Shown one piece after another: positions 8,177 to 10,733 of a stretch of DNA of 10,899 nucleotides. Each line of letters begins with the position of its first letter. Position 1 is the stretch's first letter. Source of the stretch: Burkholderiaceae bacterium (GTDB lineage: Bacteria > Pseudomonadota > Gammaproteobacteria > Burkholderiales > Burkholderiaceae_C); the NCBI GenBank assembly GCA_023260355.1, contig JALQVJ010000405.1:1-10899 (forward strand). The letters are read 5' to 3'. The position numbers and the translations under genes are program-made. The notes beneath the pieces are model-generated. The model saw nothing but the letters and a program-made list of their open reading frames with translations, was not told the origin of the DNA and did no database searches.

Positions 8177-8599
8177 ATGGCTAACTTGAAAGGCTCCAAG
8201 ACGGAGCAGTGCTTGAAAGACGCCTTCGCCGGCGAATCCCAAGCCAACCGTCGTTACCTGTACTTCGCGAACAAGGCCGACGTTGAAGGCCAAAACGACG
8301 TGGCAGCGTTGTTCCGCTCGACCGCTGAGGGCGAGACTGGCCACGCACACGGTCACCTCGAGTTCCTGGAAGCCGCTGGCGACCCAGCAACCGGTTTGCC
8401 GATCGGCAGCACCCGCCAGAACCTCGAAGCCGCAGTCGCTGGCGAGACCCACGAGTACACCGACATGTACCCCGGCATGGCCAAGACCGCTCGCGAAGAA
8501 GGTTTCGACGAGATCGCTGATTGGTTTGAGACCTTGGCCAAGGCCGAGCGCTCACACGCCAACCGCTATGCGAAAGCATTGGCTGAGTTGCAAGACTGA
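8177..8599 (+). CDS. rbr: Rubrerythrin (di-iron domain only, no rubredoxin domain)
   Basis: This is a non-haem di-iron peroxidase-type protein; family members reduce hydrogen peroxide to water in the cytosol. All expected diiron ligands are present in a four-helix ferritin-like fold: E20 (A-G-E-S-Q-A-N-R-R-Y), E53 and H56 (E-G-E-T-G-H), E90 and E93 (G-E-T-H-E-Y), and E124 and H127 (A-E-R-S-H). At 140 residues the protein ends right after the di-iron domain. The C-terminal rubredoxin-like [Fe(SCys)4] domain of classical rubrerythrin is absent, so an outside electron donor is needed. The only Cys is C12. The gene has a strong AGGAG site. A likely terminator and a second hairpin follow it, and the next gene encodes a cysteine-rich Fe-S protein that is a candidate partner. 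Codon use looks biased towards C-ending codons, which fits high expression. Confidence 0.95.
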   Translation: MANLKGSKTEQCLKDAFAGESQANRRYLYFANKADVEGQNDVAALFRSTAEGETGHAHGHLEFLEAAGDPATGLPIGSTRQNLEAAVAGETHEYTDMYPGMAKTAREEGFDEIADWFETLAKAERSHANRYAKALAELQD

Positions 8600-8614
8600 T
8601 TGCAATGAGCCATG

Positions 8615-8640
8615 AACCCGGGCCGATAGGTCTGGGTTTT
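8615..8640 (+). terminator. Likely intrinsic terminator after rubrerythrin
   Basis: A 10-bp stem (8615-8624 with 8629-8638, two G-U pairs) has a GATA tetraloop and leads into TTTT (8637-8640). It sits 16 bases after the rubrerythrin stop. The U-tract is short, so termination may be partial and let some transcripts continue into the Fe-S gene. Confidence 0.5.
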
Positions 8641-8643
8641 GCG

Positions 8644-8676
8644 CTGCCTGCTTGCCCTCAAAAAGCAAGCAGGCGG
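8644..8676 (+). repeat. Strong 10-bp perfect hairpin between rubrerythrin and the Fe-S gene
   Basis: GCCTGCTTGC (8646-8655) and GCAAGCAGGC (8665-8674) are perfectly complementary with a 9-base A-rich loop; two more pairs can extend the stem outward. No T-run follows, so it is not a standard terminator. It could protect the 3' end of the rubrerythrin mRNA or mark a processing site. Confidence 0.6.
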
Positions 8677-8689
8677 GTTGGTCAAAGGT

Positions 8690-8727
8690 TTTGAACTGCA
8701 TTTTGTCCACCTTTTGTCTAGTTCAAA
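8690..8727. repeat. Inverted repeat enclosing two direct repeats, upstream of the Fe-S gene
   Basis: TTTGAACT (8690-8697) and AGTTCAAA (8720-8727) are perfect 8-base inverted arms. Between them TTTTGTC occurs twice (8701-8707 and 8712-8718), 11 bases apart, about one helical turn. The right arm ends 48 bases before the ATG of the next gene. The layout suggests a regulatory site, but no known consensus is recognised and no clear promoter is seen. Confidence 0.45.
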
Positions 8728-8775
8728 TCCTTTCACCAACCCCAAAACAAGAAACACTCAACCGAGGACCCCGAC

Positions 8776-10122
8776 ATGTCACGCGAAGGTAACTTAGAGG
8801 CCCCCACCCGCCACCCTCTGGACTGGCAATCGCCAGAGTTCTACAACGAAGAGGCGTGTCTGACTGAGCTGGAACGCATTTACGACATTTGTCATGGCTG
8901 CCGCCGATGCGTGAGCTTGTGCAATGCCTTCCCCACGCTGTTTGATTTGGTGGATGAGAGCCCCACGATGGAAGTGGACGGCGTCGACAAGGCGGACTAC
9001 TGGAAGGTCGTCGATCAATGCTACATGTGCGACCTCTGCTACATGACCAAGTGTCCTTACACGCCGCCTCATGAGTGGAACTTGGACTTCCCACACACGA
9101 TGTTGCGCGCCAAGGCCATTCAGTTCAAAAAGGGTGAAGTCAATAAAGCCAACCAGTTCTTGGCCTCGACCGATACCCATGGGTCATTGGCTGGCATCCC
9201 AGTGGTGGTGCAAGCCGTCAACGCGGTGAACAAGACCAAAGTGGCGCGCAATGCGATGGAAAAGGTTTTGGGTGTGGACGCCAAGGCTTGGATGCCCGAG
9301 CTCGCGACCCAAAAGTTCCGCTCGGGTGCCGAGGCCAGCGCACCGCTGCCGGTCAAGGACGGCGAGCGCACGCCCGGCAAGGTGGCTATCTACTCGACCT
9401 GCTACGTCAATTACAACGAGCCAGGGATTGGCCATGATTTGTTGAAAATCTTGGCGCACAACAACATCCCCTATGAGCTGGTGGACAAAGAGCAGTGCTG
9501 CGGCATGCCCAAACTCGAGCTGGGCGATTTGGACTCGGTCGCCAAAAGCAAGGAGGCCAACATCCCCGTGCTTGCCAAGTACGCCAAGGCCGGTTACGCC
9601 ATCGTCACGCCGGTGCCCAGCTGTACGCTGATGTTCAAGCAAGAGATCCCCCTGATGTTCCCCAACGACAGCGACGTACAAGCGGTCAAAGAAGCCATGT
9701 GGGATCCATTCGAGTATCTGGTGGCCCGCAATAAAGACGGCTTGCTCAAGACGGACTTCACGACATCGCTTGGCCATATCGCATACCAAGTGCCTTGCCA
9801 CAGTCGGGTTCAAAACATCGGTAAGAAGACCGAAGAGATGCTCAAGATGGCCCCTGAAACCACGGTCAAAACCCTGGAACGCTGCTCTGGCCACGCTGGT
9901 ACGTACGGCGTGAAGAAAGACCACCATGCCACGGCGATGAAGATCGGCAAGCCTTTGTTCAAGGCCATGGCAGACGTCGGCGGTCAGCAACCCGACTACA
10001 TCAGTTCTGACTGCCCGCTGGGTGGTCATCACATCGAGCAAGGTTTCGATGTCAACCAATTGGGTGAACCCGAATTGGCGCATCCATTGACTCTGGTCCG
10101 CAAGGCCTACGGTCTCAAGTAA
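8776..10122 (+). CDS. (Fe-S)-binding oxidoreductase with two 4Fe-4S clusters and two CCG domains (GlpC/HdrD-like)
   Basis: This is a soluble 448-residue iron-sulfur protein related to heterodisulfide-reductase subunit D and GlpC; its substrate is unknown. Cluster 1 is C39-x2-C42-x2-C45-x3-C49. Cluster 2 is C82-x2-C85-x2-C88-x4-C93-P, one residue longer than the usual last gap. The first CCG domain has C209, C241-C242-G243 and C283. The second has C341, C370-S371-G372 and C413, so its CCG reads CSG. No flavin domain, membrane segment or signal peptide is seen. GAGGA (8764-8768) sits 7 bases before the ATG. The gene lies 176 bases after rubrerythrin and 20 bases before the DUF3501 gene, with which it is surely cotranscribed. 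Context suggests electron transfer to or from the rubrerythrin (inference). It is not GlpC itself, since glpA and glpB are absent. Confidence 0.93.
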   Translation: MSREGNLEAPTRHPLDWQSPEFYNEEACLTELERIYDICHGCRRCVSLCNAFPTLFDLVDESPTMEVDGVDKADYWKVVDQCYMCDLCYMTKCPYTPPHEWNLDFPHTMLRAKAIQFKKGEVNKANQFLASTDTHGSLAGIPVVVQAVNAVNKTKVARNAMEKVLGVDAKAWMPELATQKFRSGAEASAPLPVKDGERTPGKVAIYSTCYVNYNEPGIGHDLLKILAHNNIPYELVDKEQCCGMPKLELGDLDSVAKSKEANIPVLAKYAKAGYAIVTPVPSCTLMFKQEIPLMFPNDSDVQAVKEAMWDPFEYLVARNKDGLLKTDFTTSLGHIAYQVPCHSRVQNIGKKTEEMLKMAPETTVKTLERCSGHAGTYGVKKDHHATAMKIGKPLFKAMADVGGQQPDYISSDCPLGGHHIEQGFDVNQLGEPELAHPLTLVRKAYGLK

Positions 10123-10142
10123 AACTCAAGAGGTAAACGATC

Positions 10143-10733
10143 ATGCAATTGACTGGACACATCACGCCTGAAAGCCTCATGACTCTCGAGGCATATTCCA
10201 AGTACCGCAAGGCCCACAAAGCCGACGTGTTGGCCCACCGCAAGTTGCGCAGCGTCATGCTGGGCGAGCATGTCAACGTCCAATTTGAGAGCGAAATGAC
10301 GATTCGCTATCAAATCCAAGAGATGTTGCGCATTGAAAAGATCTTCGAAGAAGAGGGCATTCAAGACGAAATCGACGCCTACGCACCATTGGTCCCAGAT
10401 GGCTCTAACTGGAAGGCAACCATGCTGATCGAGTACATCGACATCAACGAGCGCAAGCGTGAGTTGGCCAGACTGATCGGTATCGAAGATCGCATGTTTG
10501 TCGAAGTTGAAGGACACGAGCGCGTCTATGCGATTGCTGACGAAGACCTCGACCGAGAGACCGAAGAGAAGACCTCGGCGGTGCACTTTGTGCGCTTCGA
10601 GTTTTCGCCTGCCACATGCGCCGCGATCCGCGCTGGCGCGGCCGTGAAGCTGGGCTGTGATCACCCGAACTACCCCGCACATTTGCAGATTTCTGCAGAG
10701 ACCCTGGCCAGCTTGGCCGGCGACTTGCGCTGA
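10143..10733 (+). CDS. DUF3501 family protein
   Basis: This 196-residue protein of unknown function fits the DUF3501 family. Visible conserved stretches are T-I-R-Y-Q-I-Q-E-M-L-R-I-E (residues ~53-65), D-A-Y-x-P-L-V-P-D-G (~78-87), K-A-T-M-L-I-E-Y (~91-98) and R-V-Y-A-I-A-D-E-D-L-D-R-E-T-E-E-K-T-S-A-V-H-F (~126-148). The protein is highly charged and soluble, with no transmembrane segment. Two Cys occur near the C-terminal third, one in C-D-H-P-N-Y. The many conserved E, D and H residues could bind metal, but no known motif is recognised. AAGAGG (10128-10133) precedes the ATG by 9 bases. It is the last gene of the rubrerythrin-associated cluster and is followed by a strong terminator. From memory, DUF3501 genes commonly accompany this Fe-S protein and rubrerythrin in proteobacteria. 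Confidence 0.93.
   Translation: MQLTGHITPESLMTLEAYSKYRKAHKADVLAHRKLRSVMLGEHVNVQFESEMTIRYQIQEMLRIEKIFEEEGIQDEIDAYAPLVPDGSNWKATMLIEYIDINERKRELARLIGIEDRMFVEVEGHERVYAIADEDLDRETEEKTSAVHFVRFEFSPATCAAIRAGAAVKLGCDHPNYPAHLQISAETLASLAGDLR

Follow-up and report, generated by a model that had tools for sequence, protein, structure and literature searches.

A rubrerythrin, RFO and DUF3501 locus in a Burkholderiaceae bacterium with an altered second CCG site and a predicted OxyR-type operator

Introduction

Where does a rubrerythrin without a rubredoxin domain get its electrons? The question is raised by three genes at positions 8177..10733 of contig JALQVJ010000405.1 from a Burkholderiaceae bacterium (assembly GCA_023260355.1). 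We call the whole stretch analysed, 10,899 nucleotides (nt) long, the window; its source genome is 2.0 Mb in size and 80% complete. On the forward strand the genes encode RBR, an aerobic-type rubrerythrin of 140 amino acids without a rubredoxin domain (8177..8599; PF02915, 102.1 bits); RFO, a GlpC-like Fe-S/CCG protein (8776..10122; CCG family PF02754, 54.6 bits, in two stretches); and a DUF3501 protein of 196 amino acids (10143..10733; PF12007, 247.7 bits). The open reading frames (ORFs) were confirmed at these coordinates, in one direction as first reported, with 176 nt between RBR and RFO and 20 nt between RFO and DUF3501.

The original prediction, made from the DNA letters alone, called the trio an uncharacterised module with no assigned joint function. 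This does not hold. Cardenas et al. 2016 (PMC5114695; this and the other papers cited are represented here by excerpts) described RBR-RFO-DUF3501 as the aerobic-type rubrerythrin system, named its Fe-S protein RFO and already proposed RFO as an electron carrier that makes up for the lost rubredoxin. They found all three genes in 185 of 4461 genomes and only RBR and DUF3501 in 25; Hydrogenobacter thermophilus carries its RFO gene away from RBR and DUF3501. The trio has also been reported together with dps, and near oxyR in Sideroxydans (PMC7852563), in Acidihalobacter (PMC7760498), and in protists, where its predicted location is mitochondrial and where it is suggested to go back to the mitochondrion of the last common ancestor of eukaryotes (PMC7050145). 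The locus shares with the published system the three families, a rubredoxin-less RBR, a GlpC-related RFO and gene linkage, and is a further copy of a known three-gene peroxide-defence system, for which published work proposes, short of proof, a joint function.

Although the gene content is identical, the excerpts of PMC5114695 do not mention two features described below, a change in the second CCG site of RFO and an OxyR-type operator. No description of either was found in the open-access literature searched, a partial coverage that does not establish absence from print. Judged from sequence, these two features would be the useful additions to the published account.

Results

Co-occurrence and gene order. 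The linkage survey covered 299 genomes from the phylum, among them the source genome. PF12007 is present in 22 of them. RFO-type matches of at least 336 bits occur in exactly these 22 genomes, as do RBR-type matches of at least 238 bits (next best, 157 bits); both cut points are gaps in the score distribution, chosen after the scores were known. Weaker RFO matches (at most 121 bits) in 13 further genomes are GlpC-like in appearance. In the nearest set, 24 of 40 genomes (again counting the source) carry DUF3501. The trio stands in order on one strand in 39 of the 44 loci inspected; of the other five, three are clipped where their contigs end, one (L082) is a solitary DUF3501, and one, retrieved around the 157-bit RBR, is without DUF3501. 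Among 80 named loci the trio is found in 67, and 10 start too near the locus end, with upstream genes cut. RBR directly precedes DUF3501 in three named loci (L147, L158, L166), whose genomes hold RFO elsewhere in one case and yielded no RFO in the other two (metagenome assemblies). The neighbourhood count suggested with the original prediction came out in its favour, with strict co-occurrence and conserved order. Both of these, together with the predicted OxyR operator in the source organism's own family, give good support to the proposed linked redox-defence module.

RBR. The reading of RBR as a rubredoxin-less rubrerythrin is borne out by its length, its single cysteine and a PF02915 match that spans residues 12-134. 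The sole cysteine, C12, is kept in just 9 of 40 aligned rows, which argues that there is no rubredoxin domain. The classical rubrerythrin profile NF045767 fails (135.1 bits against a cut-off of 200; profile positions 1-146 of 194), its C-terminal rubredoxin part being unmatched. E20, E53, H56, E90, E93, E124 and H127 are kept in 40/40 rows, and we take the di-iron ligands to be among them. Structure matches include PDB 4di0 (1.4e-77) and sulerythrin 1j30 (4.3e-52, residues 1-139); ferritin family PF00210 also matches, at 36.4 bits. Another short contig of the source genome (G000:C330:2260-2631, L084) encodes one more rubrerythrin, a distant one (40% identical, 64.7 bits).

Sulerythrin and the H. 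thermophilus protein ferriperoxin are one-domain rubrerythrins like RBR. Ferriperoxin, also rubredoxin-less, is a peroxidase for H2O2 and organic hydroperoxides that depends on NADPH and ferredoxin:NADPH reductase (FNR), which reduce it in vitro without RFO, and a ferriperoxin mutant fails to grow at 10% oxygen (PMC3317640). By analogy with this relative, RBR may have peroxidase activity. In H. thermophilus the RFO gene is separate and the donor tested was FNR (PMC5114695, PMC3317640), whereas here RFO is linked.

RFO and its second CCG site. RFO was aligned in 109 rows from one phylum (ORFs longer than 400 amino acids, near-duplicates possible). Both Fe-S motifs (C39, C42, C45, C49; C82, C85, C88, C93) are kept in 109/109 rows, with 4Fe-4S Pfam families matching only under their cut-offs. 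The first CCG site, CCG1, reads C209-X31-C241-C242-X40-C283 with M286 in 109/109 rows, and the second, CCG2, reads C341-X28-C370-S371-X41-C413. Position 371 is Ser in 106 rows and Ala in 3; position 416 is Ala in 65, Gly in 42 (including the window) and Ser in 2. CCG2 has gained histidines at 373 (109/109 rows) and 419 (107/109). The GlpC-like proteins of the phylum, taken from 10 of the 13 lower-scoring genomes and compared with 9 RFO rows, have Cys at both 371 and 416 in 10/10 cases, with Gln at 419 and one of Ile, Leu or Met at 373; E. coli GlpC likewise has Cys at the equivalents of 371 and 416. The original claim of two [4Fe-4S] sites and two CCG domains thus stands as to motifs, fold and Pfam matches, and fails for CCG2 in that two of the five GlpC cysteines are missing.

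GlpC is the closest curated family, under its cut-offs (213.8 against 278 bits and 146.8 against 279.9 bits). RFO shares with it the pair of 4Fe-4S motifs and the pair of CCG domains, and E. coli GlpC is identical at 104 of 387 aligned residues. RFO differs in having no Cys at 371 or 416, in its histidines at 373 and 419, and in missing the GlpC cut-offs. An AlphaFold model of RFO (pLDDT 84, pTM 0.86) matches EtfD over 370 residues, the longest fold match, and LutA and HdrB over about residues 201-448; the CCG fold is present. These structures (HdrB, LutA and EtfD: 5odc, 9a6l, 9ojn) are 13-19% identical to RFO. HdrB-type proteins have two complete five-Cys CCG motifs, whereas RFO keeps four Cys plus M286 in one site and three Cys in the other, in 109/109 rows. 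That the former cluster position still offers three Cys, now joined by two His, suggests retention of a metal site in altered form. We put forward tentatively, and consider it less than likely, that RFO is a CCG class of its own, with CCG2 rebuilt into a 3Cys/2His metal site (C341, C370, C413, H373, H419) acting as an exit reserved for the di-iron peroxidase.

Two other routes for the electrons have to be weighed. A general donor such as FNR could feed RBR directly, while RFO and DUF3501 do some other job linked to peroxide, such as the repair or recycling of the di-iron site or of a low-molecular thiol. The RFO fold relatives HdrB and EtfD act on disulfides or quinones, and CCG2 is no longer a standard motif, both of which would suit such a job, as would the ability of FNR and NADPH to sustain ferriperoxin turnover in vitro (PMC3317640). 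However, RFO-type and RBR-type matches are inseparable in the 22 positive genomes, and GlpC-like proteins are electron carriers, as PMC5114695 also argues; on balance we regard direct donation as rather unlikely. Alternatively, RFO may be a quinol:rubrerythrin oxidoreductase that runs a GlpC/EtfD-like reaction in reverse, with the quinone pool as its electron source. Such a scheme is RFO-to-RBR transfer with the donor named, and both the closest curated family (GlpC) and the longest fold match (EtfD) point to it, but the quinol donor is taken over from the chemistry of the family, and we consider this specific version unlikely.

DUF3501. The best named matches of the DUF3501 protein are from Comamonadaceae and other Burkholderiales. 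The Burkholderia pseudomallei DUF3501 crystal structure 3fjv is 58-59% identical to it, and the window protein's model (pLDDT 91) superposes on 3fjv with an rmsd of 1.6 over 191 residues. The title of that structure says 'unknown function', and a literature search by the code 3fjv found no paper. Across 16 rows, E49, Q57, E60, E65, E76, Y80, R104, E115, D135, R138, K143 and H174 are among the positions that never vary. No Cys is invariant, so an Fe-S cluster in DUF3501 is unlikely on sequence grounds. The loci in which DUF3501 stands beside RBR without RFO suggest that DUF3501 serves RBR; the earlier idea of an adaptor or assembly subunit is a guess. Genome G026 carries a second, lone DUF3501 (L082, 6527-7129) with no RBR or RFO within the 12 kb read.

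A predicted OxyR-type operator. Upstream of RBR, at 8054..8090 on the forward strand, lies a 37-base sequence made of the blocks TTAG, CTAT, ATTG and CAAT with 7-base spacers, ending 86 bases 5' of the RBR start. This layout has the length and spacing of E. coli OxyR sites. The sequence scores 16/16 on a degenerate scheme and 13/16 against the strict E. coli consensus; a pattern search matched it with 0 mismatches, and 11 of 200 window shuffles matched at up to 3 mismatches. Counting the window, 66 of the 107 regions upstream of RBR score at least 14/16, against 13 of 10700 dinucleotide shuffles and 0 of 117 RFO gene starts. The scheme was derived from 20 upstream regions and the other 87 were scored separately: 48 of these pass, against 0-2 with eight alternative spacings and none in five trials with scrambled blocks. 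Scored against the strict E. coli consensus, 48 of the 87 reach at least 12, compared with 0-5 when other spacings are used. As a positive control, E. coli oxyRS scores 14. For ahpC, scanned on both strands at a threshold of 13, seven of the eight loci have a site within 160 nt upstream (when a locus was shuffled 300 times, 0-12 of the shuffles reached 13). An OxyR homologue is encoded in the source genome (G000:C205; 44% identical to residues 1-249 of E. coli OxyR); of 16 genomes queried, one, G005 at 66% completeness, yielded none. From these sequence features, OxyR, which senses peroxide, appears to turn on the trio via the predicted operator.

The site might instead belong to another LysR-type regulator, since T-N11-A sites are common to such regulators and the motif is missing at four of the six katG loci. 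We think this quite unlikely, given the length and spacing of the E. coli OxyR consensus, the score at oxyRS and the sites before ahpC.

Other features of the window. In the RBR-RFO gap, a perfect 10-bp hairpin was read in the sequence at 8646..8674 on the forward strand, with no T run downstream. The gap folds with a z-score of -7.5 against mononucleotide shuffles, and z is below -2 in 54 of 96 loci; the stretch folded takes in 60 bases of RFO. The hairpin is possibly an RNA-stability or expression-ratio element that could raise the amount of RBR above that of RFO. Downstream, a yaaA start clipped by the window end (10803..10899, forward strand) gives a weak match over 31 residues only (NF002542, 20.9 bits). 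Full YaaA genes (PF03883) follow the trio in relatives, and YaaA is downstream in 24 of 123 loci. The original prediction took yaaA next door as support for a peroxide/iron theme; the yaaA start is there, but with so few loci the argument is weak, and yaaA is best regarded from this pattern as a neighbour, without implied module membership. A role mainly in iron handling under peroxide stress (ferritin-like storage or Fe-S repair), with peroxidase activity secondary, would fit the ferritin match of RBR, those 24 loci and the lowering of free iron by YaaA in E. coli, but seems very unlikely, as the yaaA linkage is a minority that may reflect shared descent and the ferriperoxin kinetics and mutant indicate peroxide (PMC3317640). 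At the contig start, an ORF at 57-1193 (378 amino acids) matches no Pfam family at E 0.001.

Discussion

We consider it probable, taking the explanation as a whole, that RBR is a peroxidase fed by RFO and assisted by DUF3501. The di-iron site of RBR would reduce H2O2 and probably organic hydroperoxides. As RBR has no rubredoxin, its electrons would come from outside and would reach it by way of the two cubane [4Fe-4S] clusters and the CCG domains of the GlpC-like RFO. The second CCG site, with its three Cys and two His, may be the exit that faces RBR. DUF3501 would be an accessory of RBR rather than of RFO, acting in docking, di-iron loading or protection. The gene set and order, the strict co-occurrence, the altered motif and the operator-like sequence come from sequence analysis here; RFO-to-RBR transfer, a donor for RFO (ferredoxin, FNR or quinol), what kind of site CCG2 has become, binding by OxyR and the role of DUF3501 are inferences.

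Several observations weigh against this account. Ferriperoxin could be reduced in vitro by FNR and NADPH on their own, which means that RFO is not an absolute requirement (PMC3317640). No recurrent linked flavoprotein was found near the trio in the neighbours scanned, a scan of ORFs of 120 amino acids or more, and thus above the size of small ferredoxins. A sigma-70 scan of 7840-10899 found no promoter, and katG has a site of at least 13 in only 2 of 6 loci scanned. The operator is also lineage-limited: scores fall below 13 in 34 of 107 regions, and reach at least 14 in 13/13 own-family regions, 48/68 named-genome regions and 5/26 other regions outside the family. The failures among named genomes include Caenimonas (L112), a Polaromonas (L119), a Limnohabitans (L124) and Tepidimonas (L100). 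The predicted operator is a family trait.

In the source genome, G001, G003 and G005, which all hold the trio, no match to KatG and no AhpC match over the cut-off was found, in a count limited to these two peroxidases. Of the four genomes, just G001 is nearly complete: it belongs to the same genus, is 98% complete in one contig, and has the trio without KatG or over-cut-off AhpC matches. The trio may therefore be a main peroxide scavenger in lineages like G001. The predicted operator allows a direct induction test, and the altered CCG2 residues are precise positions for mutation. If CCG2 has indeed been rebuilt, the HdrB/GlpC superfamily would gain a new type of electron-transfer site, and true RFO proteins would be separable from GlpC by sequence, in a system described across aerobic bacteria (PMC5114695) and inferred for the mitochondrion of the eukaryotes' last common ancestor (PMC7050145).
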